Assembly: GCF_003324165.1 (NCBI RefSeq)
Contig: NW_025407844.1
Location: 602,073 to 666,072, forward strand
Direction of reading: 5' to 3'
DNA from: Naegleria lovaniensis
Lineage: Eukaryota > Heterolobosea > Eutetramitea > Acrasida > Naegleriidae
Length of the DNA stretch: 64,000 nucleotides
Under the pieces are notes generated by a model that was not told the origin of the DNA, searched no databases, and saw only the letters and a list, made by a program, of their open reading frames with translations. The position numbers and the translations under genes are program-made. Shown piece by piece: positions 1-37,415 of this stretch. How positions within the stretch are numbered: position 1 is the stretch's first letter; every line of letters starts with the position of its first letter.

Positions 1-545
1 GGTTGTTTTGGACGAGTCGAAGAGATTTGATTGGAGGACATGTTGATTCTATGATAAATTATTGTTATTGGTGAGTGTAAATGATGGTAGTGAATAAATT
101 TGGTTACCAAATTTCAAACTGAAGCAGCGGAGGTATTATTTCAAACAATGATGAAAATTAGTTGTAACGGTCTGATTCAAAATTCAATATATGATAACAA
201 ATTGTTTTCTATGGTTGTTTTCAATCTCCCAATACGAGCACTGTAGCGGACCGTTACGTAAAATTGAAAAGTCACTCGGAATGAGAGAGAAGGAAGGGTT
301 TTTTTCTACACCAAAATTTTGTTGAAGCACGAATTAGGCAGAACACCCTCTCTTGTGGAAGTGGGTACCTCTCTCTTGAAAATCATGAAGAATCCATACT
401 GTGAAGAAGAGCTTTCTAGTTGGCATTCGACGACTACACATGCGTTTAGCACACAGTTGTTAGCCACAACTGCTCTCAAATTTGTCACTGTCAAGACATG
501 CAGCATCATTCGCAATGAAATTTAAACTAGGTTTTATGAAATAGT
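1..545. other. No recognisable gene; AT-rich 5' flank of the window
   Basis: I see no ATG-initiated reading frame of convincing length here. Two overlapping open frames of about 68 codons (roughly 306-525, one per strand) start only at TTG and resemble nothing I know. The stretch may hold the 3' end or untranslated region of a gene lying upstream of the window, and the 3' UTR of the minus-strand gene that stops at 546. Confidence 0.4.
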
Positions 546-2918: not shown

Positions 2919-3258
2919 TGGAGGTCGTGAATTGTTGTTTTTGAATTATTAGAGAAATTTTGCACTTTAGGTGGTGAGATGGGATGAAAGGATGGAACCC
3001 GAGAGCGAGTAGTTGTGAGAAAGTCTATGGTGTTGATGAGCTGGCGAGGAAATTTTTTTGCTGATTTGAGGATGTTTGATGAGTGACTTGCAGATCGTTT
3101 TGTAATCAAGATGGAATTGATTAAAATCTTGCTAATATGTTGTGAACCATGTGGATACCCTTTCATGTTGTTCTGGCCCGAATATAAAGTAACAGTTTGT
3201 TGCGCCCAGCAACGTATTAGAAGTTGTAAAAGCAAGATTTTTTCACAAGCATAAAAAA
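2919..3258. promoter_or_regulatory. Divergent intergenic region between hSac2-domain gene and AP-3 beta
   Basis: This 340 bp separates two divergent start codons (2918 minus, 3259 plus) and must hold both promoters. I see no distinctive motif. The open frame on the minus strand (to 3235) has no similarity I recognise and is left out. Confidence 0.4.
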
Positions 3259-6000: not shown

Positions 6001-6124
6001 TCTCGAGACAATTAAATAATATTTCACTTTTTGTGCTGACTCATCGTTTGACTTTTCACACAAATATTTGCCACAAGGGAAGGACGAGAGATTGGAAATC
6101 ATCAAAACCCACAACAACAAAAAA

Positions 6125-8401
6125 ATGCAAGCCTTGGATCGTCATCTTCTCGATTTACATACAGTACTCGAAGAAGGAGAAAAGTGCACAGCACTGTTAA
6201 ATCCAATTTCTATCGTTTCGGATATGAACGATTTTTGCAGTCGACTCTCCTCGGACGACATTGGTCTCTGCTCTAGTATTCTATTCCATGAAGAGAAGGG
6301 AATATTTGCCTATGTCAATCGATCACTCACTTTATATCCAAGTTCGATTGGAGGCAACAAGACGATGACTCTGAGTCGGAAAGCAATTTTCGACTTTTTA
6401 TTGAATTATATTAAAATTGCAAAAGAACGAATTTTAGAGCACGTTCTTGTGATCAAAAGGTGGTGTGTCAATGTCTTCCGACGAGAGAGTTCGAATCAAG
6501 TACGACTCGCAACCATTCCTCCTCTCATTAAATTATTAATTATTTTGATGGAGAATGATTCTCCATTATTGATATCAAAAAGTTCCTCTTCCTCCTCCGA
6601 ATCGGATGAAGCAGGTACGTCCTCAACGACCAATGATGACGCAACCAAGAATAACAATCAAATGGAGACAGATGAGAGGAATGAAAACTCTACTACTGGA
6701 GAATCATCAAGTGCTGTGGCTACTTTATCCAATCGATCTCCTGCAGAGTCCGATACAAGTCTCAATATTCGAGAAGTGTTCCAAGTCTATTTCAAAGAAT
6801 TCCAACGATTGGGCAATAATGGTAATCAAACATTGAAAGGAAGTATTTTACACTTATTAGGTGTGTTGTGTGAATATTTTCCTGGAGAGACACACATGTA
6901 TCAACAACAAATGTTGTCTCTTCTCATGAGTACACTACTCAATCAGTCAAAGAAGGCAAAACCAGAACCACAATTGATTGCTTCGACGTTTCGAGGTCTC
7001 TCCCATTTCTTGTCTCAATTTGGTGGTTCTGTAGAAGAAGGTTCGACCTATATCAAACCATTGTATCAACTCTTGTGCACAAGTCTGGAGCTTGTGAATG
7101 AAACTCGATACGACGTTCCAAAATCTGCATTGATTTTACTTGCGAAACATGCATTCCAATTTAAGGAATATCTCACAGTGGATGCAGAGAAAATGTTTGA
7201 TCGACTTTCAACATTATGTTCTCATCGAAATGACAAGGTACGAAAGAATGCATTCCCTGCACTTGAGAGTTTCCTAGCACAAATTTCATACGAGTTAATT
7301 CGTGATGGCGGAAGAAAACTTGAATCGAATTTGCGAACGTTTAAGAATCTCATGCAAAAATTCAAAGGTTTACTTTCACTAAATTTTTCTGATGTCTCTG
7401 TTCAATCGAGTACGGCTCCATCCATTAATCCAAACATCAACAAGTATTTCCTAAGTATTGCAATTAGAAGTTTTGGACAATTTGCTCTTCCAATGAAGAA
7501 ATTCTTGACACAAAACGACATGAAAATAATTCTAAGACAATTACTGAAATTGAGTGATCAATTACTTACAAGAAGTCAAGAGCAACTTGAAGAATCTGTT
7601 TCTCACATTCCATCTTTTTTATCTGCTTTTGCGAATATTATTCTTGAACTTGACATTGTTGATTCATGGATTATGGACTCGTTAGAGAAAATTTCAGGAA
7701 TTTTGTTTTTGGTTTACCCAAAGCAATATCTGTTCCCCAAGTATAAGTATGCTAATTATAGCGCATTTGTGAAATTATTGATTGCATTGTATATGAAAGA
7801 GAGAGCTCTTGGAAACTTTTTAGATCGAATTGTGTTTCAATGTATGACTTTGACAATTTCTAGTGTGACTTCTCTAGTGACCACCAATGATGTGAACACC
7901 AATACTAATTCAATGGCCTCCGACCAACCTCCATCCCTCTATGAAGAATACTTAGATTTATGGTACAATATTTTAAATCCAAAGAATATCAAACTAGGAG
8001 ATTGGAATTATCCATGGGTTGATTTAACACTATCCGAAGATCTTATTGAACATTTGCATTCCATTGTGTATGACAAATTGATCGAAGTGATTATGCAAAT
8101 GATATCCAAATTCGATCTCAGATGTACACATGCAAGTACCTTGTCGGGAGATGGCAGTACCTCTGGAAACTCAGTCACAACAGCTACAGGGCAGGTAGTT
8201 GATGAAGGAACTGCAATTCTTCAAGATGCACTCATCCCATCAAATGCTAAAGATATGGAGCTGTTCTTGAACTTGGTTGAATTTTCAAAAAGATTTTTGA
8301 AGAAGTGTAAACCAAAACACTTTTTAAGATGGAATTATCTGGCGTTCCCAACTCCCAGAAATAGTGTTACAATAGCATTTGGAAAGCACTTTATTTTTTA
8401 G
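6125..8401 (+). CDS. PRKDC: DNA-PKcs, N-terminal part, cut off by a transposon
   Basis: First 738 codons (6125-8338) of the DNA-dependent protein kinase catalytic subunit. After them the frame runs 20 codons into the transposon and stops at 8401. The start is the ATG at 6125 (MQALDRHLLDLHTVLEE); the longer open frame to 6068 begins only with TTG. The sequence is alpha-helical HEAT-type repeat. Landmarks shared with animal DNA-PKcs include YDVPKSALILLAKHAFQF, RKNAFPALESFLAQ, LSIAIRSFGQFALPMK and NLVEFSKRFL. A Ser/Asn/Thr-rich loop lies at ~6580-6740. DNA-PKcs is recruited by Ku to broken DNA ends in non-homologous end joining. The homologous sequence resumes at 12231. As written, this half alone would give a truncated repeat-only protein. 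Confidence 0.88.
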   Translation: MQALDRHLLDLHTVLEEGEKCTALLNPISIVSDMNDFCSRLSSDDIGLCSSILFHEEKGIFAYVNRSLTLYPSSIGGNKTMTLSRKAIFDFLLNYIKIAKERILEHVLVIKRWCVNVFRRESSNQVRLATIPPLIKLLIILMENDSPLLISKSSSSSSESDEAGTSSTTNDDATKNNNQMETDERNENSTTGESSSAVATLSNRSPAESDTSLNIREVFQVYFKEFQRLGNNGNQTLKGSILHLLGVLCEYFPGETHMYQQQMLSLLMSTLLNQSKKAKPEPQLIASTFRGLSHFLSQFGGSVEEGSTYIKPLYQLLCTSLELVNETRYDVPKSALILLAKHAFQFKEYLTVDAEKMFDRLSTLCSHRNDKVRKNAFPALESFLAQISYELIRDGGRKLESNLRTFKNLMQKFKGLLSLNFSDVSVQSSTAPSINPNINKYFLSIAIRSFGQFALPMKKFLTQNDMKIILRQLLKLSDQLLTRSQEQLEESVSHIPSFLSAFANIILELDIVDSWIMDSLEKISGILFLVYPKQYLFPKYKYANYSAFVKLLIALYMKERALGNFLDRIVFQCMTLTISSVTSLVTTNDVNTNTNSMASDQPPSLYEEYLDLWYNILNPKNIKLGDWNYPWVDLTLSEDLIEHLHSIVYDKLIEVIMQMISKFDLRCTHASTLSGDGSTSGNSVTTATGQVVDEGTAILQDALIPSNAKDMELFLNLVEFSKRFLKKCKPKHFLRWNYLAFPTPRNSVTIAFGKHFIF
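8331..8338 (+). repeat. Left target-site duplication GGAATTAT
   Basis: Eight bases, GGAATTAT, lie immediately before the left terminal inverted repeat. They are repeated exactly at 12223-12230 after the right end. They belong to the DNA-PKcs coding sequence (end of TGG, then AAT TAT). Confidence 0.93.
8339..8358 (+). repeat. Left terminal inverted repeat of the transposon
   Basis: It reads CTGGCGTTCCCAACTCCCAG. The reverse complement of the right end reads CTGGCGTTCCCAACTACCAC. Weaker similarity continues inward (GTGTTACAATAGC against GTGTAACATTCC). Confidence 0.92.
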
Positions 8402-8480
8402 AATCCTAACCATTTTAAAAAAGGTCGAGCAGGCTGTCGAAGTTTTGTTCTGGTGTTTGCTGGAGGTTTTTTCAATAAAA

Positions 8481-11400
8481 ATGTTAAAACATGAACGAAA
8501 CGCCTTTGTCGGTCTGTTGAGACCGGAATATCATGTTGCCATCAAAACAATGCTATTCGCAGTCCATCAATATATTAATGTCGAACATTTAATAGAAGAT
8601 ATTATTGATCAATGTGGATTTCATCGCAAGGATTTTAATACCATCCATCGCCATCTCGAACTATATTTCTCATACCTCATCACACACAACAAACGAGTCC
8701 CATTTGTTCTATACTGTTGCAAATTCCAGGTTGACAATTCAACAAAGATTGCACAATATGTTACTGATTGCATTGACCCGGACGAGGATAGTGCTATCTA
8801 TAACATTTACTCTGACCCAAAATTTCAAAATCAAAGACAAAATCAAGAGTTAACATCAGAATGGATCAACAAACTACATTTTCAAGGCTATTTGAAATTG
8901 AAAGAGTGTCATGACGAGCTGATGCGAATTCGTCAAAAACGTAAACACTCCAAAACAAGTACAGCTTGCGAAGACCCACCTCAAACCTCAACAACGTCAC
9001 AACGTTATTCTAGTTCAACCATCATGAAATTACTCGAACCAGAAAAAAATGTCGGCGTTATTGAATTACATAAAATCCTGGATCATGGTTTTGCTGAAGA
9101 CTACATCACGTTGTCATATTCAACAAAAGAACAAACAGCACCGTATTACATGCTGCAACAACTAATTAACAACAAATTTATTCCAACACACTCATCAATT
9201 GTAAATACCAAGTCCGACACCATCTCTCATAATTTTGTAGACCATGCTGATTTTAAATCACAAAATAACGATGATGATAGTTATTATTCGGAATGTGATA
9301 TATTTGATGAGGATATTCAAGAATTGAAAAAATTGTTTTTTCAGGTGTTAGGTAGTCGCAAATTAGTACCTCGAACTTTCTTTTTCACATATCTTCGTGA
9401 TGCTTTTTCACAATTAATTTGCAAAGACAGTAGAGGCCATAGATGGAGCCCATCTGTTCTTTGTTTTGCTCAAGATTTATTGGTTATCATGGGATACAAT
9501 GCGTATGAAGCATTGGCGAGAGGGTTGAAACGAGGACAAGAATTTGAACCCTCTTCTGAAAGATGTAACTTAGTCCTACCTTGTTCATCCACACTCGACC
9601 ATCATTTTCACACCGCATCATATGGAGAAGGGAATACTAAACTAGACAAAGATGACTTTGATAAGCTAGTAGAAAAAATGAAGGTTATTGAAAATCAAAA
9701 TTTTGGTCTTGTTCAAATTGATGCAGTAGATGTAACACCGCATTTAGGAATCAATACCAAGCTTGGGCTTGTATACGGTGCCAATGAAGGTCCATTGAAG
9801 ATTAGTGATTGTACTGCACTAGCTCAGAGTCCGAATTTTCCACCCAAGGGTTTTTTAGCTGAAAAAATTGTTCAAACTTTATATTGCAGTATTAACGGTG
9901 AAGTTCGAATTCCTGGAAACTTCAAAGTATGCACTACTGAAACTGAACAAACCATTAGAGACACGATTTCTGAATTTCGTGACACATATACTCGAAACAT
10001 CGTCTGTACTGTGTCAGATGCAGGGTCTGCTAATTACAAATATTTCACATCGAGCCCAAATGAACTACATCATTTTTGCTACAGTCACCATTGCAAAAAC
10101 ATGAGGAATGCAATTAATGGGAGACCAAAATTATATCCGGTTGCCACTAAAGTAGGTGCTCCAAACCTTCAAATTGCACGCCATTCCTCTGCTTGTATTT
10201 CTTCCAACGACAACGGAAACGGTTGCCATTTGATGAAAATTGTTATTCAAAGAACACAAGCGACCAACATACCACTTTCCTTCATAGTGAATGACAAAGA
10301 CACAATTTCATTTGAATGGAAAGAAAAAGAACCACGGAATTTTAACTCTGGAGGCATTTCTTTCTATCATAGCAGCAATGACAACGAATTAAGTGTTACG
10401 TTGTTGAGTGAAACCCTTCATACTAACATTGGTAAAGTGTGTGTGGCAAATTTTAGCAATCAAGACATAGCTGTCACCAAAATTTCTTGTTCTATTTTAC
10501 AACGATTTGAATTGAACACACTCGATGAAATATATAGACAACAACCTTTAGAGTGGTGTAAAATAGTTAAACGGAGCTCGTTTATCAAATATGATGATCA
10601 ATCTGAGGATGTATTACGTGATGTATGCAATTTACAGTTACTTGAAAAATTACGATTATTGAACGAGAGAACCAACTATCGATATTTAGGATTCTATAAG
10701 TACTTAAAAGCGATACATGATTTATTTCATGTTTACGATGACAAAAATCATGATGGAACATCTTCACACAATTTGCACGAAGTGTTGCAAGTTCTTAAGG
10801 AAAATTTGGACTATTTGAATGAGTGGGATACCGTTTTCCAAGACGTCATTATTTCCAATAAGAATAATAATTTTACATTATCCGGAACCCTCACAAAAAA
10901 CATCATTATCCATAACATCAAAACAATTCAGAAATTGATCAGAATTATTCCACAAGATGCAGTTTTTGATTTGTCTTTATTGGGAACACGTTCTCTTGAA
11001 GGATTTTTCGGAGAGTCACGTGATTATTCAAAAAGAACCACAGTATTGGACTATCATAGAAGTTACTCAAACATGAAAATCAAATTAGTGAAAAAAGAAT
11101 GTGTATATCTTTCATACAATAACGATAGAAAGAGGAAATATTGTGATGCCCCTAGTCAAATTAACCAACAAATTTTGATGAGAATGACTGAAAAACAATT
11201 TGTTGACTTTAATAATGAAAGAAAGCAAGCTAGAGAAAGCGTGACATCCATTTCTTATAGTTTTACAGATCAAGATTTAATTTGTGCGAAAGACTTACAA
11301 TTGCGATGTTTACAACATCGTGTCAACTCCATCCGTCAATCATACCATCAGTCAAGACATGACTATAGGGCCGGATTTGCCACCGATTTCATGGAGACAA

Positions 11401-11921
11401 GCATTTCCAATTACTACAACATTTCACTTCCTGTTTTCCATATTGAAACAAGTGAAGTTTTGCCAAACTTAACAGAACGACTTACATTAACCGACGACAT
11501 CAGTTTTACCATTATTCAAACACACGACTCATTAATTCATGCTCAAAATCATATTGCGGCATTTTTGCTTAAAAAGCCCGTAGAATTTGAAATTAAGACT
11601 AATCATATTTCTTTGAGCAATGCAACCGTAGAGGTTCGCAATTTCAATGAGAACAATGAAAATGCATCTCGACATTCTGAACCAATTAACTCATTTAAAA
11701 TATTTGTGGCACCAAATCAGACGGATCCATTCAAATTTAAATTAATTGGACAATTTTCATCAACAACCAGCACCAAGCTTTATCAAAAACAAATTGCTGT
11801 GATTGTTGGAAATTATCAGTTGTTGTCACCTCCTTTTTACGTATTTGCAAAGAAAACAAAAAACCTCGTTTCGTATTCCCAGCTGAGCCAGGTGGTGGCT
11901 TCGTCTCAAGACATGCAATAA
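8481..11921 (+). CDS. Transposase, P-element/THAP9-like RNase H fold (DDE)
   Basis: 1146 aa from the ATG at 8481; an open frame extends upstream to 8379 but without ATG. In order it shows a region around HRWSPSVLCFAQDLLVIMG followed by a CNLVLPCSSTL segment, as in P-type transposases; IDAVDVTPHLG (candidate first Asp, residue ~414); CTVSDAGSANYKYF (second Asp, ~513) followed by HHCKNMRNAI, like the H-L-x-K-x-x-RN signature; a ~325-residue insert; then LLGTRSLEGFFGESR (candidate Glu, ~840), like the P-type LE-x-FFG motif. A ~300-residue C-terminal extension of unknown function follows. I see no clear THAP zinc finger at the N-terminus. A possible polyadenylation signal AATAAA overlaps the stop. 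The triad is inferred from motif resemblance only. The frame is uninterrupted, so the element could be autonomous. Confidence 0.75.
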   Translation: MLKHERNAFVGLLRPEYHVAIKTMLFAVHQYINVEHLIEDIIDQCGFHRKDFNTIHRHLELYFSYLITHNKRVPFVLYCCKFQVDNSTKIAQYVTDCIDPDEDSAIYNIYSDPKFQNQRQNQELTSEWINKLHFQGYLKLKECHDELMRIRQKRKHSKTSTACEDPPQTSTTSQRYSSSTIMKLLEPEKNVGVIELHKILDHGFAEDYITLSYSTKEQTAPYYMLQQLINNKFIPTHSSIVNTKSDTISHNFVDHADFKSQNNDDDSYYSECDIFDEDIQELKKLFFQVLGSRKLVPRTFFFTYLRDAFSQLICKDSRGHRWSPSVLCFAQDLLVIMGYNAYEALARGLKRGQEFEPSSERCNLVLPCSSTLDHHFHTASYGEGNTKLDKDDFDKLVEKMKVIENQNFGLVQIDAVDVTPHLGINTKLGLVYGANEGPLKISDCTALAQSPNFPPKGFLAEKIVQTLYCSINGEVRIPGNFKVCTTETEQTIRDTISEFRDTYTRNIVCTVSDAGSANYKYFTSSPNELHHFCYSHHCKNMRNAINGRPKLYPVATKVGAPNLQIARHSSACISSNDNGNGCHLMKIVIQRTQATNIPLSFIVNDKDTISFEWKEKEPRNFNSGGISFYHSSNDNELSVTLLSETLHTNIGKVCVANFSNQDIAVTKISCSILQRFELNTLDEIYRQQPLEWCKIVKRSSFIKYDDQSEDVLRDVCNLQLLEKLRLLNERTNYRYLGFYKYLKAIHDLFHVYDDKNHDGTSSHNLHEVLQVLKENLDYLNEWDTVFQDVIISNKNNNFTLSGTLTKNIIIHNIKTIQKLIRIIPQDAVFDLSLLGTRSLEGFFGESRDYSKRTTVLDYHRSYSNMKIKLVKKECVYLSYNNDRKRKYCDAPSQINQQILMRMTEKQFVDFNNERKQARESVTSISYSFTDQDLICAKDLQLRCLQHRVNSIRQSYHQSRHDYRAGFATDFMETSISNYYNISLPVFHIETSEVLPNLTERLTLTDDISFTIIQTHDSLIHAQNHIAAFLLKKPVEFEIKTNHISLSNATVEVRNFNENNENASRHSEPINSFKIFVAPNQTDPFKFKLIGQFSSTTSTKLYQKQIAVIVGNYQLLSPPFYVFAKKTKNLVSYSQLSQVVASSQDMQ

Positions 11922-12073
11922 AATGTCAAGCATTTTTCATCACAAAAAAAGTTCGTCCAAAAATTGGAACACGTTTAAAATTGTTCACCTATTTATTTCT
12001 TCCGACCACAATTACACCGTATTTTTCTAATCACAACAACATACCTCAAGTCGTTTTATTATTCATTATAGCT

Positions 12074-12121
12074 CCAGCAGAAGCCTTTGTCCTTCAACAA
12101 AGACAAAGCAGCTTTTGCTGG
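12074..12121. repeat. Subterminal inverted repeat (stem-loop) inside the transposon
   Basis: The left arm CCAGCAGAAGCCTTTGTC and right arm GACAAAGCAGCTTTTGCTGG are nearly complementary around a loop of about ten bases. It lies about 100 bp inside the right TIR and 150 bp after the transposase stop. It could be a transposase-binding site or a 3'-end/RNA hairpin. Confidence 0.75.
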
Positions 12122-12202
12122 GCGAACAACAAAAAGCTAATGTAACAAAAACACTGAGACGTAGCCCGAATGAACCAAATAAAGGAATGTTACACCAGCG
12201 AA

Positions 12203-12222
12203 GTGGTAGTTGGGAACGCCAG
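12203..12222 (-). repeat. Right terminal inverted repeat of the transposon
   Basis: The plus strand reads GTGGTAGTTGGGAACGCCAG, the inverted copy of the left end with two mismatches in 20. It is followed directly by the second GGAATTAT. Confidence 0.92.
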
Positions 12223-12230
12223 GGAATTAT
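12223..12230 (+). repeat. Right target-site duplication GGAATTAT
   Basis: Exact copy of 8331-8338, directly after the right TIR. The DNA-PKcs coding sequence continues at 12231 with GTG TTC TCG. Confidence 0.93.
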
Positions 12231-15200
12231 GTGTTCTCGAAACTTGTTGTAGAAAAATCAATTCAATATCCATACATTAGCGGATTCTACAAAATGTTAT
12301 CAGTGGCCATGAAGATTAGTGACAAGTATGACTATTTTGAAAATATCAACGACAAGAGTACCATCATGAAGTCATCTTCCACAATTGTAAAACAAGAATC
12401 TCAATCACTATTGGCTGAGAATGCTGCCCAAATGACAGATGAAGAAGTTGAAGATGATGAAATTCTCATGAAGAAACTCTTCATTGTCGATTACAATACC
12501 AAAGTCATTTGCTATCAATTACTTTTGAAGTTTGTTAAAGATAACGTCATTCAACGATTGCATGAATTCAAAGGAGAATTACTCACTAGTTGCATCAAAT
12601 TTGTGCTTTCCATGCCTAAATCATTTATTGATCTCAAATATTGGGTGCATCCATTGCAGTTATCCTTCGAGTTGGGCCTAAGTTATTTACCTCTTGCAAA
12701 CATCGGTCTTGAAGCCATTGAATATTGGTTGAAAGTGTTGCCAAGATCTGAACTTGTTGAAAAGTGCTTCCCTAAAGTTTTACCAAAATTAGATCCCTAT
12801 CTGATGGTCAAGCACAACAACTCTATTGGTGTGAGCGGTGACGACAATGATGTAGATGCAGAGGTGTCCGACATTTCCAAACTGTTGAAAGGACAAACCA
12901 AAACTTCCATCAGAAAAACCAATGATAACACTACACAAGCTAAAAACAAGCTTTCTAGTTTTGACAAAACCCCACTCAAGAAAGTACAATTAGGTATCAT
13001 CCGATTACTAGGAAAAATTGGAGGAGACAATGCCAATATTTTGAACAAGGCCGAAAATTCACACGCCAATGACGATATCATTATTACATGGGACACGGAG
13101 CCACGTGTGAAATTCTCAATGCCATTCCGTGATGTGAAAATGGAACTTTTCTTTGATCCTGTTTTACCCAGAATTACGGAACTTGCTGAAAAATCTAGTG
13201 ATAGACAAACCAAGATTGCGGCATGTGAATTCTTGCACTCGATTGTACTTTATATGGTTGGTAAAAATGCATATAGCCCACAAGCAAGACAAAGGGCACA
13301 AGAAATTCAAATGAAGCAACAGGAAGAAGATGAAAAGCGCAAAAACAAGCAAGATTCATCAATCAATGATGAAGAATCTACTGTAGTAGTCTCAAGCGAC
13401 CCAACCCCTTATTACAAAATCTATGAAAAATTATTTCCAGTATTGTTGAGACTTTCAGTCGATACTGAACAAGTCACCAAACAATTATTTGAACCTTTAA
13501 TGTTCCAATTGGTCCACTGGCTTACTCAAAACATGCAATATGAAAATAAGGAGACCATGGCTTTATTGGACTCAATCATTGATTCCATGTCAAACACTAC
13601 GGATGGAGCTCTCAGAGATCAATGTGCTTTATTATTGAATGAATTCTTGAAGTGGTCAGTCAAGCACGATCGTGACAAGAAATACATTAATGTGAAATCA
13701 CTTTTCCAAAGGCTATACAGCAACATCCATCATCCAAATTTGTTCAAGAGATTGGGAGCTGTTATTGCTTTTAACAGCATGTACAAAAGCTTTAGAGAAG
13801 TAGACGCACTCGTTCAAAGACATGTGCTTGATTGGTTACACAATGTGATTATCAGTTTAAAAATTATTGACAATGATTCAGAAATTTTAGAAAATCAAAA
13901 AACATCTCATTCGAGCTCCAACAGCACTGGTATCATTGAAAAATCTATTCAATTAATTGGACATATCGAGAGAATTGTAGTTCAAAAATCATCTCTTCTT
14001 ATCAGTGAGATGGATCGTAGAATTCACACAACGCTTGCTGATTGTGTGGATTGGATTTTCATGCAATGTGGAAACGGCGAGAGAATTTGTCGTGAGCAAT
14101 GCATGAGATTATTCCCAACGTTGTGCATGTTATTGCCTGGATTTGATACAGATGATGGCCCACGAAGATGGATTCATGCAAAATTCAAATCTGACGAATC
14201 GAGCGTTCTTCGAGTGGTAGACGTTCCTTCTTCGTACATTCCAAGCTATGGAGGTTCAATTAAGGTCAAATCAGAGAAAGAAGAAAAGAAAGTGAATATT
14301 GCTCTCAGTACGACAGCAACAGCCAATGACATTTCTTATTTTGAAAAAGTAATGGTTTGGCTTCAAAAGTTAGAGGCCTCTTTTGATTGTCTTTATTGGT
14401 TATTTAATCACAAATTTTTGTATCCTCACCAATTGTTTAACTTGGAAAAGGAACATGATGAATTGAATCTCGAAAATAAGAGAGCATCTTCATCTGGAAG
14501 TAGAGCTACAAATTACAAAAAGAGGAAAACAACTGATGACAATGACATGCTCGATGATGATGGAGAAGTGAGAGTAATAGAGGATGAACAAGAACATGTG
14601 GCCTCGACTTCATGCTCGATCATTGGTCACATTTATAACTTTATTGAAAAATTTGCTCTCAAAAAGACGAGTGAGTCATTTATTTTGATCAGTTCTTCCG
14701 ACTCAGAAAAGTATATTCACAGAAAGACCTCTACATTATTCAAGTTACTGAACTTCTTTGGTTTGATGCTTGACAAGTATCCAAGCAGTTTATTATCACA
14801 AAAAGTCACAGAGAAGGAAAATATTTTGGAGAACACCAAATTCCTCACATTATTATTCCTTTGCATTTTAACACCATCCAAGCAAGGCTTTAACACGAAT
14901 CAAGAGGAAGTGCAAACTATGCTACCTCGATTAACACGAAAGATTCTAGAATCAATTGTCACATATTCAAAGCATACCGCTAATGGATCAGCAATTATTG
15001 CTAAATGCAAAAAGATTTTGAATGACATGTTGTCACAGCTTGTTGAAAAACATATTCATCAATTGGATTTCACAAAATCAGTCAAGTTGAATATGGATGA
15101 TTATACATTCATGTTTAGAGGAATAAGACTTTTGCACAAATTAGATTATTTAGATGACGATGCCTTACGACCTCATTACTCATCAAAAAATGAGTTTGGA

Positions 15201-18200
15201 AAGAAGATTTTAGACAAGTTATTTAATCAACATTTTGATCCTTTAATGGGACCAGTGAATGTTATTATTTGCAAAGAAATGCTTCAGATGTGCTTTGAGT
15301 TTTCCATTGATGTTGATCATTTGTTAGATATGGTCACAAACACCACAGCTTCCTCTTCAGCCGACAACATTTTATCGAAGAAGTTATCCCAAATTGATTC
15401 TTCATATCAAATTGCAGGTGACGAAGGTAGCAGCGCAGAACATCATTCCAAACAGCCTCACAGAGTGAAGCCAACCACGAAAGGGGCGCAATTTTACAAA
15501 ATATTCCACTCAGAAATTGACACGTACATTTCTGAACACTTGGATGTATTTTCCAAGGCACTCCTGACACGAATTGCAAACATTCCATCACTCAAAGATC
15601 AGCACGAGCTGAACCATCACTTTTTATTTGATGTAATTCTGAGCGTGAGTTTGAAATTTTTAAGACTTCCATCCTCGAAAAAAGATAAGAAGTCGATCTT
15701 TGTGCAGCATGTATTGGATTCTTTGAAACCAGTTCTTGAAAAATGTAAGAACACTACCGATGACGATTACAAAATCAAGACCATGTCACTCATTGAGAGA
15801 CTTTTCGCTTTGGATGCTACATTAATATTGCAGCATGCCATTTATCAAGAGGCTATTATTGAATTCCTTTTGACATGTCTCAAAATCAAGAGAGATGATT
15901 CTTCTAGAACTTCAGAGAGTGAATCACCATCCAATCTATTTGATTTGAAATTGAAAGCCATTCGTATTTTGCCAGTCATCTTTAAGAACTCTCTACTGTC
16001 GTCTGAAAAGGACGAAGTAAAAGAAAAGTTCAAAGGAGAACTTGCACCAATTCTTAATCAAATCAAGAAAATTGTGATTGATGATTTTCCATTGAATTAT
16101 GAAGAAATAGAAGTTGAGTCAAGCGAATACGATGATCATGTTTCATTACTTGAGGACTTACTTTTTGCTCTTCAAGGATCTGATTCTGTTGAAGTGTTGG
16201 AACAAATTTTGCCACTTTATCGATGGAAAAATCATCCAATTCAAGAACGAATGACACAATCATTGAAATCCTTATTTGGAAAATTCACAAATGAAAAGCT
16301 TTTGAAAGCAGCCAATAGTTGTTTAGAGACATTCTACAAGGAAAGTTTGCCAATCGATATTCGAAGACAAGTGATTCAGTGGGTTTGTCTCACATGCCTC
16401 ACACACATGCCTGAACGAGTGTTAATTCAATTCTTTGAGGACAATATTCAACGATTAATGAAATCGATCGCAAAACCAACGGCTCTAAGTGAAGAAAGTT
16501 CAAATCCCAATATTGATGAACTCGATACAGATTCTGTAAAAGCTCTCTTTGTCACGAGAACTTGCTGTTACAATTTACTGGAAGCCATGTATCGTTTATT
16601 GCCTGCTACTGCTGTCAAGGAATTTATCAACAACAAGTATTGTGAAAAAACAGCAAACAGCAGTCAGCTTACTGGTAAAGAATTGACAGAGAAAGTTATG
16701 AGATCGAGCTTTGCTGCACGTTCATGGAAACTCAACGATCAAGAATTCAAGTTGTTGGGTCACGACTTGTTACTCGATTTTAGAACAAGTGCTTTCAATG
16801 TGCTTGCTGGAGGTGTGAAATGTACACAAACTCAAGAAAAGTTTTATACTGGATTTCTCTTCAAAGAAAAAGAGGATGATTTGTGGGAAAATATTGTCAA
16901 TCTCGATTGCCATTATAACTTTGAAATTGAGACCAATTTTGCATTCCATCGAAAAGCAGTGGATGAATTACGAGTAGATTCTAATCAAAAGAAAATTGAA
17001 TCACACGCTGGCACTCACAGAAAACCAGGAGAGCTACAAATCGGTTATCTTTCGTCACAATATCTTTCTGACAGTTCATTGAGCTCTAGTTTGCCAATTG
17101 CTAGTAATTTCTTTATTCCTGGATCGAAATATGCAGAAGAGGCCATTTTGAACAATTCATCAGAAGAAGAAGCATCATCGAACAAGCCACAAGATGTAGG
17201 TTCTACCTCTTCCACGAGCAATGACAGCAACACCAACTCTACTTTGGAAATGGACGAAATTAATGCTAATCCTTGCATGTCTGCCGTGTTGAGAACGATC
17301 GATCACATGGTCTCTATTTTCAAATATCCTGGCGTTTCATCAGATGCTTCATCCGTAACGTCCACCACGACACAAACCATGCCTTCATGGATGGGTGAAA
17401 TGCACAAAAAGCTAAATAACGACTCTACACATAGAAATATCAAACTCTTCATTTGCAAGGTCATCATTAACAGACCCAATGTGTTTGAACCATTTGCCAA
17501 ACACTTCTTCGAACCTATTGTGAAACTAATTTTGAGAGAAGAAGAGGAACAAAAACAAAGTGAAGACGTCTCTACTAGAGGTATCAACTACTTTATCAGA
17601 GACTTGTTAATTTTATTGTTGAGATGGAAAGACGTGTCTCCACACAAATCAGCACTCACCAAAGATTTAGCTTCCAAATTACTCGCATTCATGTTTAAGA
17701 ATTGTGCTCATCAAAAGAAAGTGATTCTGAGATCCAATCTTGAATTGATTAAATTGATGGTTGAGAAATGGAGAGAGGCAATGACTATTAACAAAACTAT
17801 TATTCTAGGATGGCTATGTCATGACGAATCGAAATCGTCAGCAAAATTAGCGAGAACAACAGGACTTCAACTTTTGGGAATCATGATTGCGAATGATATT
17901 CCAATCTACATGACCGAGACAGATTCCAATTTAGGAGTGAATGAAGAACAATTCTATGAGAAGATTCTCGATAATTTAAGCTTCAAGAACAAGGACGTTT
18001 ATGAAGCAGCTGCAGAAATTAGCGGAATGATTTTGAAGAGTCTTTCAAATTCTAAAACACATTCAAATGATAGTGTGAAATTGTTTGAAAAATTACTTCT
18101 TGCAAGATGTTTGGGAATTCTACAGAAAATGCAATACGATCGATTCTTGAATTGTCTCTACAAGATTGGAATTCATGATACTGGATTTATTGACAATTTC

Positions 18201-21200
18201 TTGCCAACCAAGATTTTGGATATTTTACCAAATTTATATGGTGTTTATAAGAAGACAGCTCTTCAATTGATTTCATGGAGAGCTGAACATATTACTGATT
18301 TGTATACTTCTTTGAAGCCATTCATTCGTCAACATTTACAACACAAAGATGAACCTACTCAATTATTAACACTTCAAATTGTTTATCAACTCGTGAAAGC
18401 AATTCCAAAAGATGACGTCATGCACTTTATGGAAATTATTACTACACATATTAACACGAGTGATGCTCAAATGATTGCAACATTCTCTGAACCTTGCCGA
18501 GAAAAGTATTATGACATTTTAATTTGGTTATTCGATAACAGACCTACCGAATTTAGAAGTGATGAAATGATCCGAACTGAGTTGCTAAAGGCCATGAATG
18601 ATCCTTCCGAAGACATTCGAAAGAAAATGCTCATCTTTTGGGATCACGAATCTAGATTATCCAACGAAAGTTTACGTCGTTTGGAGCAATCATTTACTCT
18701 CTTATTTTCACAAAATTTAGGTGACAAGTGGCTTCAATTTTCCTCATACTTGATTCTTCAATTATTACATCGTTCACCTGATTTTTCTGATACCAACGCC
18801 ATCTTCTCAGAGAGTCTTTCCAATTGTGTCTTTAAAGAATACAAGATTGACACAAGTTGGCAACATAGAAGTTTACCACTAACGGCCACATCCATTGTTC
18901 TTGGATCTGGAGTATCGATAGGATCTAGTTCCAAGAAGGGACATGGAACTGTTCAAAGTTATGCATCTCTTCCTTATGAATCTCTTGCATTGGAAGATCC
19001 CTATGCCACTTTGTCACAATCTCAACAAGTTCCAGCAACTATTGGTGTTGGAATGGTCAAGGCCACTCAAACTCCTCAATTTACTCCAACACAATATGCA
19101 ACAGAGACGTTGAAAGATATTCTTTCAGCTCCAAGTATGAGTCAAACATCACTATTGTTCACACCGTTCAAGTCTGTGACCAGTAATAATGCTCAAGGAA
19201 ATAGTGCAGATACCACAGGTGGAAATTCTGCTACAGCTGCTGGAGGAGCTAGCGGGGCTACTTCCGAGTCATTCCAAGGTCCATACTTGAGAAGAAGATT
19301 TTTAAAGTTAAAGGAAAATACCATGACACAATATCAAGCACGTAGAGCTGTTCGATTGAAGAGAGAAAAAGAAGCTTGGGAAACTCGACAAAAAATTGCA
19401 AAGAAAAATAAGATTACCATGTACAGAAAGTACAGAACTGGAGAATTACCAGATATTCAAATTGCTTTAAAGGAGATTATTACTCCATTGCAAGCACTTT
19501 GTCTCTATGATGTGAATGTTTCCAAGCATTTGTTTGTTTCGGTATTCTCTTCTCTATATCCAAATATTGCACAAAAATTGGATGAAAAACAAGCTGAGAC
19601 ATTGAAGAATAATATTCACACGACCTTCAATCAAATGTTAAAACAATCTGGAGATAGCTCAGTATTGATGTCCGCGTTAATGACTTTATGTCTTGAAATT
19701 TTGGACCTTCAATCACCTAAATTTAACATTCTATCACCCAAACTTGTTCGATCTGTTAGTATGCAAAGTTTTAACGTTGAATTAGGAATCCTATTGTTGG
19801 AATCTTTAATTGAAAACAATGCTATTGATTCTGGAAATGACGAAGACATGATTGATCAAGATCGAGACATGAGAGCTTACATCGACGCATGGATCGAATT
19901 AGGTAAACTATACAAATCCATCGATGAAGAAGATGTGGTTCGATCCATTTTCGAGTATCACGTCGCTCAACAAGAAAATACCAAGAGAGCTCTTTCCGAA
20001 GAATTAGCTGGTCGGTACAATAGCGCACTGAAAATTTATGGACAGGGTCTACAAGATTGGGATGCTGGTTGGAAATCTCATGATACTCCACCATTAGAAG
20101 AAGAAGTAGTCTTTTGGCGAGAACAAAAATTAGAATGTCTTAAAAAGATGAACCAATGGGATACTGTATTACAAGAAGTTGTGTCTGATTTGAAACGAAT
20201 GACCAAATCTGAAAATATCACCAATGATGAATCATCACTGATACAAGAAAAGATTTGGCAAAGTGAAAATAGTGACAAGCTGCTTTCCCTATTTTTGGAT
20301 AGTAATTTGAAACTGAAAGAACGATGGAGCGCGTTACAACATTTCATTGAAGTTGCCATGAGTTCAAACACAAAGAGAGACATCTTGGAGAGCAAGTTCT
20401 GTGATCGCCTTTCATTCTTGTCACTCTTTATTCAACAATATGAAAAGGCCAAGTCCTACATTGTGGATAGTTACGCCGAATTTTTACAAAGTTGGAGCTC
20501 ATTGTCACCGCTCGCTAAAACTGGTCGTCATATTTATTTGCAAAAACTTCAACCTCTTGTAGAAATTGAAGAATTTATTGATTTGTGGCAATCTCAAATG
20601 AATATGAAACCAAAGAAGTTAATTCAATTGTTGCAAACATGGAAATCGAGATATCCAAGTTCATACATTGATGATATGAACACGTGGGACAATGTGGTCA
20701 CCAATCGAAATTTCATGTATGATTTAATTTCACAAAATTTGGAGAACTTTATTGAAAAAGATCAACCAAAACTTTCACTCAGTGGAAAGTCGTCTTCACT
20801 TCGACCTCTCACAAGCAGCTTGTTAGGTGACGACCCAACGACTACACTTCTTCTCTCAGCAGGATCTCTTTCACAACAAGACTATGTGGTTGGTGCTACC
20901 TCTACTGGTTCATCTATTTTGACAATGGACTCTGAATCTCTCTCAAAATCTATTGCAAGAGAGAAGGCCATCATGTATTTGACCGTCACAAAAGCCGCCA
21001 GAAAACAAAAGAACAATACTGTTGCTCAGAGTTATCTCAAAATTGCACAAGGATGCAGTAAGAATTTGTTGACTTCAGATTCTAACAGTAGTGATGCAAT
21101 CGCTTTTGATTTTGAATTTTTCAAATCTCTTGTGAAATTATTGAAGATTAAGGCAACAAGCAAAGGATCGACTACTGCTGACACTGTTTCTGTGTTTGAG

Positions 21201-24014
21201 AAACTTGTTCGATTTATCAAACAAAATGGAAACAAGTATGGAAACGAAGCAAACATACCAATCAAATACTTGTTGACCTACAAATTATTAGATGCAGATG
21301 CAAACGCTTCGTTTGCTTCTACTCTTCGAGAAATCAAAGTTCAAAACACAGATTTAGGATCTTCAGAAGACATTTTAAGATCTTCATTTGTTCGATTTAA
21401 AGAATCGATTGAATTGGTGAACAAACATATTGCACAAGTGTCTGATGATTCCAAGATCATCAAAGTCGATGACGACGTCGACTATGTGTCACATCCTCAA
21501 GCATCCAAGATTTATCTCAAGTTTGCACTATTTTGTGATAATCTTTTGAAGCAACGCTTGAATCAAACTGATGATGACGAAGATATTATTTTAACAAGAG
21601 ATCAACAACATAGTTCACTTCCTTCTAATGATCAATTAGCCAATTATATTGTTGAAAATCTCATGAACAGTATGAAATATTTCAACAAGGAAGCAAGAGA
21701 TCGATTCCCACGTTTATTAGAATTATTAGAAAAATATCCAACCACAAGAAGTGTCTTTTCCAAATTTGTACCTTCAACTTGTACGTTACAAATTCCAAGT
21801 TGGATGTTTATCACATGGATTTCACAATTATTGGCTCACCTAACAGGACCAGAGGGAGAATGTCTAGTTCCAATATTAATTTCCATTGCTGAAAACTATC
21901 CACAGTCCTTATATTATCCATTGAATATCAGTGCAGATGAAATTATTGATTCTTACGAAAAAGGAAATACCACTATTACTCGCAAAGTGTTGGAAGGTAT
22001 CAAAATTATGAGACAAAAAGTGAAAAACCCACTCATTGAAACATTTATTTATTCTCTCAAAAAGTTGAATTATCCAGAATTACGATTCAAAGCATTCATG
22101 GATGACATTAAGGAAATTATGAAATCAAAAAATTACAAGTCAGAAAATAGTCGAAAGAAAGATATCAAATCCAAATGGGAAGAATGCTATGATGATGTTT
22201 TTGATCCCAATGCTCCTCATATTGGCGTTTACAATGTAAGATTTGCCAAAAATTGGGCTCCAGCCATCAAGAAGGACTTTGGAGGACGTGACGGTGAAAA
22301 ATTGTTAAAAATGGATGAAAAGACGTTTGAAAGTTCCTATTTATCAAAATTCAAAAAGATGAAAGAAACGAAAGGAGCTTTACAACATGGCAAGACGAAA
22401 CTTGAATACTTTTCTAAATGGATGCTTGATTTCCATCAATCGTCATCTTCATTGAATATGAATCATTCAATGTCCTCCTCTTCGGATTCTTCTCATCAAC
22501 ATTTCATTGAACTACCTGGACAATATATTGATAACATTGGAAAGGCAGCTTCTTCCTTAATGTTAGGAACATTATCCATGAATACGAACTATCCCAATAT
22601 GCAACCACCAAATTTGGACGATCATGTAAGAATTATTAGTTTCGATCCAACGTTGTTGACCATGTCTTCGATGAGAAAACCCAAACGTTTAAAGATTCAT
22701 GGTTCAGACGAAAAGGATTATGCATTCCTTGTGAAAGGAGGAGAAGATTTACGTCAAGATCAAAGAATTCAACAACTTTTCCATGTCATGAATAATATTT
22801 TAGATCAAGATGCTAATTGTAAACAACGAGAATTATCCATTCGAATGTATAAGGTCATTCCAATGAGCACCGAAGTTGGAATTATTGAATGGGTCGATAA
22901 TACCATGCCATTAAAGGCAATTATTGAAGAACAATTGAATAAGGAATCTGGAACCAAAGATCAAGAAGTATTGAAACACATTTCTTCAACCATTCATTTG
23001 AAAATGATGGAAAAATTAGCAGGAAATCATCCCGAATTGAATTTATATCAAAAATATATTTTATCTTATCAGAAAGCAAATCAAGATAGTTTAACACAAG
23101 TCATGGATGAGCAATACAAGACGATTAATCCAGATTTATTGAGAAATGGATTGAGATCATTGGCAATTTCTAATGAAGCTTACTTCACGATTAGAAATCG
23201 ATTTGCCAAGTCACTTGCCACTTTCTCTATTTGTTCATACATTTTAGGAATTGGAGATCGTCACTTGGAAAACTTCCTTGTGGATTATTCGAGTGGATCT
23301 TTGATTGGAATTGACTTTGGACATGCCTTTGGAAGTGCTACTGAAATTTTGCCAGTTCCTGAACTCGTTCCTTTCCGATTGACACGTCAATTGTTGGCTG
23401 TGTTTTCACCCATTTCGACGACTTTGGATGATTTTTCAAATGAAAATGTTGGAACAGGTCTTTTGTTTGAAAGTATGGTTCATTGCATGCGAGCATTACA
23501 TAATCATAGACATATTTTGTTAAATACCATGGATGTATTTATTAAGGAGCCACTTGTTGATTGGTTGAAGAATGCAAAGAAAAATCCACAATTTTATCAG
23601 AGTATGATGATGCAAGAAGGTGGTACTAGTAGCACGACTAGTTATGGATTGAGTGACAATGCATTGAGTGGTGGTTCGTCATCATCCTCGGCAGCTGTTT
23701 CACAGACTGAAAGCAATAGTGAAGTCTCTCTCATGAAATGGTATCCACAACGGAAAGTGGAATTGGCCAAAATGAAATTGGAATTGGCAAATCCAAAAGT
23801 TATTTTCAAGAGCGATGTTCAGGCCAATCCTTGCATTAAGAAGGGAATTAAATATGTCGAGAGAGCCATTGAGGGAGATGCCGAGATTAATAAGAGAGCC
23901 AAGGTTGGAGAAGTGTGCTCGAGTGTGAAAGAACAAGTCGAATGTTTGATCGATATGGCTACCGATGTCAAGATCTTGGGAAGAACCTATATTGGTTGGG
24001 CAGCTCAATTTTAA
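12231..24014 (+). CDS. PRKDC: DNA-PKcs, remainder: HEAT repeats, FAT, PI3K-like kinase, FATC
   Basis: 3927 codons continuing the same protein; the rejoined host protein would be 4665 aa, somewhat longer than the animal enzyme. The first coding ATG after the insertion is at 12294. Helical repeats and the DNA-PKcs-specific central region are followed by a FAT region (~19.4-21.9 kb) and a kinase domain from ~22.6 kb. The kinase signatures are intact: the ATP lysine in AFLVKGGEDLRQDQR (22734), the catalytic GIGDRHLENF (Asp at 23256) and IDFGHAFGSA (Asp at 23313). FATC is the final ~30 residues, ending LGRTYIGWAAQF. The intact DRH and DFG rule out TRRAP/Tra1, the pseudokinase I considered first. 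VPELVPFRLTRQ and FIKEPLVDW are DNA-PKcs hallmarks. There are no introns. Because a transposon lies upstream, this allele probably cannot make full-length protein unless the element is absent from the other allele or excises. Confidence 0.92.
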   Translation: MFSKLVVEKSIQYPYISGFYKMLSVAMKISDKYDYFENINDKSTIMKSSSTIVKQESQSLLAENAAQMTDEEVEDDEILMKKLFIVDYNTKVICYQLLLKFVKDNVIQRLHEFKGELLTSCIKFVLSMPKSFIDLKYWVHPLQLSFELGLSYLPLANIGLEAIEYWLKVLPRSELVEKCFPKVLPKLDPYLMVKHNNSIGVSGDDNDVDAEVSDISKLLKGQTKTSIRKTNDNTTQAKNKLSSFDKTPLKKVQLGIIRLLGKIGGDNANILNKAENSHANDDIIITWDTEPRVKFSMPFRDVKMELFFDPVLPRITELAEKSSDRQTKIAACEFLHSIVLYMVGKNAYSPQARQRAQEIQMKQQEEDEKRKNKQDSSINDEESTVVVSSDPTPYYKIYEKLFPVLLRLSVDTEQVTKQLFEPLMFQLVHWLTQNMQYENKETMALLDSIIDSMSNTTDGALRDQCALLLNEFLKWSVKHDRDKKYINVKSLFQRLYSNIHHPNLFKRLGAVIAFNSMYKSFREVDALVQRHVLDWLHNVIISLKIIDNDSEILENQKTSHSSSNSTGIIEKSIQLIGHIERIVVQKSSLLISEMDRRIHTTLADCVDWIFMQCGNGERICREQCMRLFPTLCMLLPGFDTDDGPRRWIHAKFKSDESSVLRVVDVPSSYIPSYGGSIKVKSEKEEKKVNIALSTTATANDISYFEKVMVWLQKLEASFDCLYWLFNHKFLYPHQLFNLEKEHDELNLENKRASSSGSRATNYKKRKTTDDNDMLDDDGEVRVIEDEQEHVASTSCSIIGHIYNFIEKFALKKTSESFILISSSDSEKYIHRKTSTLFKLLNFFGLMLDKYPSSLLSQKVTEKENILENTKFLTLLFLCILTPSKQGFNTNQEEVQTMLPRLTRKILESIVTYSKHTANGSAIIAKCKKILNDMLSQLVEKHIHQLDFTKSVKLNMDDYTFMFRGIRLLHKLDYLDDDALRPHYSSKNEFGKKILDKLFNQHFDPLMGPVNVIICKEMLQMCFEFSIDVDHLLDMVTNTTASSSADNILSKKLSQIDSSYQIAGDEGSSAEHHSKQPHRVKPTTKGAQFYKIFHSEIDTYISEHLDVFSKALLTRIANIPSLKDQHELNHHFLFDVILSVSLKFLRLPSSKKDKKSIFVQHVLDSLKPVLEKCKNTTDDDYKIKTMSLIERLFALDATLILQHAIYQEAIIEFLLTCLKIKRDDSSRTSESESPSNLFDLKLKAIRILPVIFKNSLLSSEKDEVKEKFKGELAPILNQIKKIVIDDFPLNYEEIEVESSEYDDHVSLLEDLLFALQGSDSVEVLEQILPLYRWKNHPIQERMTQSLKSLFGKFTNEKLLKAANSCLETFYKESLPIDIRRQVIQWVCLTCLTHMPERVLIQFFEDNIQRLMKSIAKPTALSEESSNPNIDELDTDSVKALFVTRTCCYNLLEAMYRLLPATAVKEFINNKYCEKTANSSQLTGKELTEKVMRSSFAARSWKLNDQEFKLLGHDLLLDFRTSAFNVLAGGVKCTQTQEKFYTGFLFKEKEDDLWENIVNLDCHYNFEIETNFAFHRKAVDELRVDSNQKKIESHAGTHRKPGELQIGYLSSQYLSDSSLSSSLPIASNFFIPGSKYAEEAILNNSSEEEASSNKPQDVGSTSSTSNDSNTNSTLEMDEINANPCMSAVLRTIDHMVSIFKYPGVSSDASSVTSTTTQTMPSWMGEMHKKLNNDSTHRNIKLFICKVIINRPNVFEPFAKHFFEPIVKLILREEEEQKQSEDVSTRGINYFIRDLLILLLRWKDVSPHKSALTKDLASKLLAFMFKNCAHQKKVILRSNLELIKLMVEKWREAMTINKTIILGWLCHDESKSSAKLARTTGLQLLGIMIANDIPIYMTETDSNLGVNEEQFYEKILDNLSFKNKDVYEAAAEISGMILKSLSNSKTHSNDSVKLFEKLLLARCLGILQKMQYDRFLNCLYKIGIHDTGFIDNFLPTKILDILPNLYGVYKKTALQLISWRAEHITDLYTSLKPFIRQHLQHKDEPTQLLTLQIVYQLVKAIPKDDVMHFMEIITTHINTSDAQMIATFSEPCREKYYDILIWLFDNRPTEFRSDEMIRTELLKAMNDPSEDIRKKMLIFWDHESRLSNESLRRLEQSFTLLFSQNLGDKWLQFSSYLILQLLHRSPDFSDTNAIFSESLSNCVFKEYKIDTSWQHRSLPLTATSIVLGSGVSIGSSSKKGHGTVQSYASLPYESLALEDPYATLSQSQQVPATIGVGMVKATQTPQFTPTQYATETLKDILSAPSMSQTSLLFTPFKSVTSNNAQGNSADTTGGNSATAAGGASGATSESFQGPYLRRRFLKLKENTMTQYQARRAVRLKREKEAWETRQKIAKKNKITMYRKYRTGELPDIQIALKEIITPLQALCLYDVNVSKHLFVSVFSSLYPNIAQKLDEKQAETLKNNIHTTFNQMLKQSGDSSVLMSALMTLCLEILDLQSPKFNILSPKLVRSVSMQSFNVELGILLLESLIENNAIDSGNDEDMIDQDRDMRAYIDAWIELGKLYKSIDEEDVVRSIFEYHVAQQENTKRALSEELAGRYNSALKIYGQGLQDWDAGWKSHDTPPLEEEVVFWREQKLECLKKMNQWDTVLQEVVSDLKRMTKSENITNDESSLIQEKIWQSENSDKLLSLFLDSNLKLKERWSALQHFIEVAMSSNTKRDILESKFCDRLSFLSLFIQQYEKAKSYIVDSYAEFLQSWSSLSPLAKTGRHIYLQKLQPLVEIEEFIDLWQSQMNMKPKKLIQLLQTWKSRYPSSYIDDMNTWDNVVTNRNFMYDLISQNLENFIEKDQPKLSLSGKSSSLRPLTSSLLGDDPTTTLLLSAGSLSQQDYVVGATSTGSSILTMDSESLSKSIAREKAIMYLTVTKAARKQKNNTVAQSYLKIAQGCSKNLLTSDSNSSDAIAFDFEFFKSLVKLLKIKATSKGSTTADTVSVFEKLVRFIKQNGNKYGNEANIPIKYLLTYKLLDADANASFASTLREIKVQNTDLGSSEDILRSSFVRFKESIELVNKHIAQVSDDSKIIKVDDDVDYVSHPQASKIYLKFALFCDNLLKQRLNQTDDDEDIILTRDQQHSSLPSNDQLANYIVENLMNSMKYFNKEARDRFPRLLELLEKYPTTRSVFSKFVPSTCTLQIPSWMFITWISQLLAHLTGPEGECLVPILISIAENYPQSLYYPLNISADEIIDSYEKGNTTITRKVLEGIKIMRQKVKNPLIETFIYSLKKLNYPELRFKAFMDDIKEIMKSKNYKSENSRKKDIKSKWEECYDDVFDPNAPHIGVYNVRFAKNWAPAIKKDFGGRDGEKLLKMDEKTFESSYLSKFKKMKETKGALQHGKTKLEYFSKWMLDFHQSSSSLNMNHSMSSSSDSSHQHFIELPGQYIDNIGKAASSLMLGTLSMNTNYPNMQPPNLDDHVRIISFDPTLLTMSSMRKPKRLKIHGSDEKDYAFLVKGGEDLRQDQRIQQLFHVMNNILDQDANCKQRELSIRMYKVIPMSTEVGIIEWVDNTMPLKAIIEEQLNKESGTKDQEVLKHISSTIHLKMMEKLAGNHPELNLYQKYILSYQKANQDSLTQVMDEQYKTINPDLLRNGLRSLAISNEAYFTIRNRFAKSLATFSICSYILGIGDRHLENFLVDYSSGSLIGIDFGHAFGSATEILPVPELVPFRLTRQLLAVFSPISTTLDDFSNENVGTGLLFESMVHCMRALHNHRHILLNTMDVFIKEPLVDWLKNAKKNPQFYQSMMMQEGGTSSTTSYGLSDNALSGGSSSSSAAVSQTESNSEVSLMKWYPQRKVELAKMKLELANPKVIFKSDVQANPCIKKGIKYVERAIEGDAEINKRAKVGEVCSSVKEQVECLIDMATDVKILGRTYIGWAAQF

Positions 24015-24080
24015 TTCTTGAAAGATCATTCTTGTGTACTTTTTATACATGCTAATGATGGATGATCACTATTAAAATGT

Positions 24081-37409: not shown

Positions 37410-37415
37410 TACAAG

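Follow-up and report, generated by a model that had tools for sequence, protein, structure and literature searches.

The described systems closest to the element discussed here are the transposons of the P and hAT superfamilies. It is established that P elements gain copies through sister-templated repair of the breaks left by their excision, and hAT elements have ends that begin with CA and duplications with a preference for nTnnnnAn. For Naegleria, no such element is described in the titles or the starts of the abstracts of the open-access papers searched, and the available parts of two genome papers (PMC6125883, PMC9928731) give repeat totals and describe no live transposon. The gene concerned here encodes DNA-PKcs, a conserved end-joining kinase which, according to the accessible sections of PMC3408717, has been lost in yeast and in Drosophila.

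In the window, that is the whole stretch of 64,000 nucleotides that was analysed (C23:602073-666072), the DNA-PKcs gene is interrupted by an intact 3.9-kb element. We read it as an autonomous cut-and-paste DNA transposon that has multiplied very recently and sits in one of two DNA-PKcs alleles, with a probability of roughly 0.88. Together with its identical copies and the many element-free sites, this makes it a candidate for an endogenous active transposon, and a possible tool for insertion mutagenesis, in a Naegleria that is probably not a pathogen, and the insertion would be a natural heterozygote for the kinase.

The insertion in DNA-PKcs and the element-free contig

The element and the parts of the gene around it are the following (positions in the window).

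6068..8338, + strand: 5' part of the DNA-PKcs frame (DNA-PKcs_N), cut after codon 757
8331..8338, no strand: left target-site duplication GGAATTAT, found once where C73 lacks the element
8339..12222, + strand: whole DNA transposon, 3,884 bp, one of 17 identical full-length copies found
8339..8358, + strand: left terminal inverted repeat, 18/20 identical to the right one
8481..11921, + strand: single-ORF putative DDE transposase, 1,146 aa, with visually assigned motifs and no match to a Pfam family at E<=0.001
12203..12222, - strand: right terminal inverted repeat, 18/20 identical to the left one
12223..12230, no strand: right target-site duplication, a perfect 8-bp match to the left copy
12231..24014, + strand: remainder of the DNA-PKcs frame (end of DNA-PKcs_N, CC1-2, CC3, CC5, FAT, kinase, FATC)

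For the inverted repeats, the 20 bases at the left end were compared with the reverse complement of the 20 at the right end, and GGAATTAT lies directly on either side of the element as a perfect 8-bp duplication. The longest open frame runs from 8379 to 11921, is free of stops, gives 1,146 residues from its first ATG (8481) and has the same orientation as the DNA-PKcs gene. An earlier, sequence-only reading had described the 18/20 repeats, the exact duplication and the uninterrupted frame, and all of these were confirmed when they were measured again. The element that it reported is present, but its extent has to be corrected, as 8339-12230 comprises the element and one 8-bp duplication, and the element proper ends at 12222.

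The Pfam domains of the flanks confirm that the insertion is inside DNA-PKcs, as had been claimed. The frame upstream matches PF20500 (E=2e-83), the frame downstream matches CC5 (1.2e-121), CC1-2, CC3, PI3/4 kinase, DNA-PKcs_N, FAT and FATC, and DNA-PKcs_N is found on both sides of the insertion. Removing 8339-12230 in silico gives a single open frame of 4,684 codons, from 6068 to 24014, in agreement with the claim that the deletion restores the frame. With the element in place after codon 757, the frame stops after 777 codons and lacks the kinase, and the interrupted allele should accordingly be predicted to yield a truncated protein without a kinase domain. That the structure arose by chance can be set aside, since the 3,884 bases occur 17 times in identical form and the assembly also has the locus without the element.

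It is conceivable that the element is tolerated and spliced out as an intron. No GT is found in the bases at the left junction, the element does end in AG, and 17 GT-AG pairs (donors 8290-8499, acceptors 12100-12399) leave an open frame above 4,000 codons. None of these 17 pairs restores the original frame of 4,684 codons, however, and by simple reasoning the frame would survive in about one in three pairs picked at random. We consider splicing of the element to be extremely unlikely.

Both 4-kb flanks were used as queries, and the one other full match common to them is contig C73 (55,145 bp); the left flank also has short matches of 73-97% elsewhere in the genome. On C73 the flanks abut, with a single GGAATTAT and no element, and the identity is 99.9% over 4.3 kb to the left flank and 99.4% over 12.3 kb to the right flank. 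The comparison covers about 27 of the 55 kb, and about 5 kb of the compared part mostly does not align with the window. C73:38500-55145 corresponds to window 24545-3991, C73:18000-20237 matches window 37.6-39.9 kb, and the far end of the contig, C73:1-3000, matches window 53,456-56,452. There is also a structural haplotype difference, with window 37280-37642 on one side and C73:20238-25500 on the other, where more than 5 kb of C73 is mostly non-aligning apart from two short pieces at 82-88% identity to the window.

When the element is left out, window 3991-14501 has no SNPs compared to C73 over 6.6 kb, and the differences are single-base indels, three of them less than 400 bases from the end of the contig and one at 14159. 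This tract adjoins one of 0.57% divergence, window 14502-24545, which has 57 mismatches and, within the gene, in-frame 3- and 6-bp indels. At the rate of the neighbouring tract the clean 6.6 kb should hold about 38 SNPs, and none was observed. The mismatches and in-frame indels beyond 14.5 kb suggest that C73 is most simply the second haplotype; in principle, the contig could instead be a segment that has been duplicated. Naegleria is, in the portion of PMC9928731 at hand, mainly a heterozygous diploid with tracts of loss of heterozygosity, and the SNP-free tract is probably such a loss, or a gene conversion, predating the insertion. As one homologue carries the insert and there are nevertheless no SNPs in 6.6 kb, the insertion appears to be younger than this identity, and most simply the homologues became identical around the site first and the insertion followed.

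The sequence-only reading had held that the element knocks out the gene responsible for repairing the sites of its own excision, or else that it marks a heterozygous or still segregating allele. The first claim may hold for one allele, which is interrupted, but the second allele is element-free, although the C73 frame is broken by one base. The fallback gains support from C73 with its single GGAATTAT, and the assembly thus supports an insertion that is heterozygous, or segregating in the culture; heterozygosity of each cell and a mixed culture may both fit. The one-base difference, at 14159, lies in a short run of C inside DNA-PKcs and breaks the C73 frame as assembled. Either a sequencing error or a genuine frameshift may be behind it, and in the latter case the assembly would be without any intact DNA-PKcs allele. 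The element-free allele probably supplies the function.

The same contig bears on the question, raised beforehand, of a chimeric assembly at 8338/8339. Chimeric joins at this element are apparently common in the assembly (see below), and one of them could have placed the element in DNA-PKcs. Here, however, one gene and one locus supply both flanks, C73 has them directly adjoining, and the two copies of the duplication match perfectly, which a chimera of two insertions would not give. At the level of the assembly we therefore attach next to no weight to such a join.

Copies across the genome and their targets

The genome searched amounts to 30.69 Mb in 97 contigs. It holds 24 matches to the element. 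Of these, 17 are complete from end to end and share one identical sequence of 3,884 bases. Nine of them have perfect 8-bp duplications and one a 7-bp duplication, and the remaining seven have flanks from different loci. Inverted ends with a duplication of fixed length (8 or 7 bp) are thus found at 10 of the 17 full copies, and pre-insertion sites with a single target are found on C73 and among the flanks of the mixed copies, both of which are general features of transposons with terminal inverted repeats (TIRs). Counted from the copies and the half-sites, there are at least 24 insertion sites in total. The copies on C94 and C92 are interrupted by contig ends, and the copy on C25 lacks the last element base and part of the duplication. 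In this copy (C25:246328-250210) the right junction is about 3 bases short, across the element end and the duplication.

The absence of differences among the 17 copies places the burst within roughly 45,000 to 450,000 generations, assuming 1e-9 to 1e-10 mutations per base and generation and a simultaneous radiation of the copies; polishing of the assembly may make repeat copies appear more alike than they really are, and a few differences could be hidden. These data support that the transposon multiplied very recently, and it may still be active. That the insertion is recent, as the sequence-only reading had it, agrees with the 17 identical copies and with the absence of SNPs between the homologues around the site. 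A decayed relative, C13:507705-508295, consists of four short pieces of 76-96% identity and is the only such relative that the genome search listed. Its presence suggests that the transposon family probably predates the present burst.

The seven copies with mixed flanks (on C22, C83, C93, C88, C85, C70 and C48) join two loci exactly at the ends of the element. Thirteen of their 14 flanks also occur element-free elsewhere, 11 by an exact 20-base match at the junction and two, on C37 and C38, by alignment with 98% and 89% identity, which are perhaps paralogues. The fourteenth flank is a repeat, and the count of 13 rests on the others. Eight element-free places (C49, two on C2, C12:559k, C27, C36, C3 and C48:144k) are 98.4-100% identical over 250 bp, and each is the only element-free match among the matches listed. 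Two insertion sites could be reassembled from their halves. The site on C37, with halves on C22 and C88, has a 7-bp duplication. The other, with halves on C48 and C93, lies within a copy of a different transposon and has an 8-bp duplication.

The likeliest explanation of the mixed joins is that the assembly, a partly collapsed diploid, was joined wrongly at a repeat that is long and identical between copies. This reading is based on three observations: four of the mixed copies (C83, C85, C88 and C93) lie 1-3 kb from one end of contigs whose length is 18-22 kb, the contigs C26, C92 and C94 each have a terminus within a copy or adjoining one, and the loci also exist intact. The same observations speak against the seven copies being real translocations, formed by ectopic recombination between identical copies. 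Such recombination would fit with joins exactly at the element ends in seven of 17 full copies, and it is the way in which Galileo generated inversions in Drosophila (PMC4168063, in the part available), but we find it unlikely here. Mis-joining being the preferred reading, it is a warning that contigs of this assembly are probably wrongly joined at this repeat.

Ten copies with proper duplications were searched for element-free alleles, and an allele-like one was found for the site in the window only. The candidates on C86 and C52 (for the copy at C32:163k) and C26:4286 (for the copy on C26) are repeats of 92-98% and were rejected. For the remaining seven copies no element-free allele was found, which is weakly informative in a collapsed assembly.

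The target motif was tested on 18 sites with 8-bp duplications at 16 offsets. At the second and the third base beyond the duplication, G is in excess on its left side and C on its right side, with 20/36 cases at each offset as compared to 6.7 expected (P=8e-7 each), and these offsets are the strongest two of the 16. The preferred target is a palindromic span of 14 bp, to which the site in DNA-PKcs is a poor fit. Counting open frames of no fewer than 100 codons (with 240 bp taken on each side), 8/20 sites are inside one, as compared to 1,576/2,000 random positions in the window (P=0.0002), which is a hint that there are fewer insertions in coding frames, with a single gene-rich region as the baseline. 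DNA-PKcs, one of several genes hit, accounts for one of the sites, which number at least 24, and none of the tests made sets it apart. It was probably hit by chance, with no special relation between the transposon and the repair kinase.

Two other loci were observed during this work. The copy at C9:447111-450994 lies within a long open frame that matches RICTOR_N, and a gene for a TORC2 subunit thus also appears to be hit; an element-free allele of this RICTOR-like site was searched for and none was found. At C12:636400-640200 there is a transposon of a second family, TE2, of about 3.4 kb, with inverted ends of 163-174 bp (94% alike) and an ORF of 1,038 aa. This ORF has a weak match to the P-type RNase H PF21787 (E=0.003) and a weak C-terminal match to an exonuclease (E=0.004), both below the curated cut-off; it would be unusual for a transposase to be linked to an exonuclease. 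The genome search with PF21787 placed TE2 at 15 places or more, 12 of them with the full 1,038-aa frame open. Both families are multi-copy with a single long ORF, but their proteins have no significant similarity, and of the two it is TE2 that has the PF21787 and exonuclease matches. The focal element has inserted into one of the TE2 copies.

Transposition and repair

The mechanism that we propose is that the putative DDE transposase cuts at the inverted ends, and that the element would be inserted with a stagger of 8 bp, sometimes 7 bp, preferably into a loosely palindromic 14-bp site with G to the left and C to the right. The copy number would rise when the breaks left by excision are repaired from a sister that carries the element.

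One copy looks like an aborted templated repair, as a single case. At C38:404191-407770, element bases 1-3,580 are followed by the last 35 bp of the copy's own left flank. The join is at a shared ATGCAA, a microhomology of 6 bp, and the other sequence beyond the repeat was taken as the right flank. It is conceivable that one broken end copied the element while the other copied the element-free homologue, and that the two were joined by the microhomology. The junction may also be an assembly or read error.

Excision footprints were searched for with 14 bases of the inverted end and up to 1 mismatch. With the 14 bases exact there was no footprint, all 38 of the 38 hits belonging to known copies, and for this reason excision is not claimed. 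Four hits had one mismatch, the relic on C13, the right end of the C25 copy, and two unexplained ones on C6 and at C37:308k; a control pattern also gave 4.

The idea of a transposon hitting the gene for its own repair is a reasonable one by analogy, since Sleeping Beauty transposition is reported to require Ku70 and DNA-PKcs through repair of the excision site (available sections of PMC7827188), and the evidence favours the heterozygous or segregating insertion instead. A more specific form of the idea is that the insertion is a true loss-of-function allele, and that a lower dosage of DNA-PKcs shifts repair towards templated or microhomology-mediated products like that on C38. The structure on C38 is what would be expected from copying the element and then an element-free homologue, and both alleles may be lost as the DNA-PKcs frame on C73 is broken by one base. 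The Sleeping Beauty requirement points the same way, and so does the programmed excision of Paramecium, which needs DNA-PKcs according to RNAi cited as unpublished or in preparation in the part of PMC3408717 that is available. On the other hand, there is one such copy among at least 24 sites, with no baseline for its frequency, and an element-free DNA-PKcs allele exists. Furthermore, Drosophila, which is without DNA-PKcs (PMC3408717), repairs P-element excisions (PMC7776569), as far as the accessible text of these papers goes. A reduced dosage might matter, yet altered repair of this kind seems to us quite improbable, more so than the translocations discussed above.

A wider picture can be put forward tentatively, as a possible rather than a probable one: an active autonomous transposon from a lineage without a described transposase profile, in the middle of an expansion in a Naegleria culture, with one DNA-PKcs allele newly interrupted and with new copies and element-free sites coexisting throughout the genome. 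If this were true, the insertion, aborted repair of the C38 type and the effect of losing a kinase of non-homologous end joining (NHEJ) on transposon dynamics could be traced in one strain.

Comparison with the P and hAT superfamilies

The single ORF is a putative DDE transposase, as judged from the anatomy of the element and from motifs found by eye. The candidate catalytic residues are D414 or D417, D513 and E840, with C533-x2-H536 after the second D. The core would be expected to have an RNase H fold, with an insertion domain between D513 and E840. We take two stretches to be P-like, one that resembles HxxKNxRN and follows the second D, the other LExFFG, located at the E, whereas the C(2)H about 20 residues past the second D and the long stretch from there to the E are presumably Hermes-like.

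Profile searches pointed to neither superfamily. The whole ORF had no Pfam family at E<=0.001, with weak unrelated matches at 0.012-0.14, and three parts of it searched separately gave no superfamily. Sequence searches of the PDB with the whole ORF and two parts gave best E values of 1.8 and 0.29 and no hit, respectively. A scan of viral and prokaryote contigs for close relatives gave 2 and 24 pattern matches, none of which was confirmed. A THAP domain was not matched at E<=1 in the Pfam search of the whole ORF or at E<=10 in the N-terminal 298 aa, the HMMER filters being such that most weak matches are dropped. Genome searches with PF21787 and PF21789 at E<=10 gave 15 and 6 places, none of them in a copy of the element among the matches listed, and no hAT family, whether dimerisation or RNase H domain, was among the Pfam matches at E<=1.

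The 8-bp and occasionally 7-bp duplications of the element are like those of the P superfamily (P element, 1360/hoppel, Galileo, THAP9), and the 8-bp ones are also like those of hAT elements (hobo, Hermes, Ac). The preferred target does not separate the two. The P element has a palindromic motif of 14 bp, reaching up to 3 bp beyond the duplication, and hobo likewise has a palindromic 14-bp motif (both in the available part of PMC3276498), so that duplications of 7-8 bp with a palindromic target motif of 14-15 bp, found here as in P elements, are non-specific. The P superfamily was first favoured because of the motif, and the choice was left open once C(2)H and the outcome of the profile searches were taken into account.

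There are differences from both superfamilies. Unlike the P superfamily, the element has no match to a THAP or P-type RNase H profile, and the D(2)H expected after the second D of a P transposase is replaced by C533-x2-H536 in our placement by eye. Unlike hAT elements, it has no hAT match in Pfam and its ends begin with CTGGCG. The pattern nTnnnnAn occurs in 3/18 duplications, with about 1.8 expected from the base frequencies, which speaks clearly neither for nor against hAT. Galileo has D(2)H where the element has C(2)H, and the spacing from the second D to the E is 327 in the element as compared to 227 in Galileo (both for Galileo from the accessible part of PMC4168063) and 228 in P (PMC7776569, likewise in part). 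P and hAT both fit the duplications and the palindromic target, the profiles match neither, and we leave this TIR transposon family, with its 8-bp duplications, unclassified.
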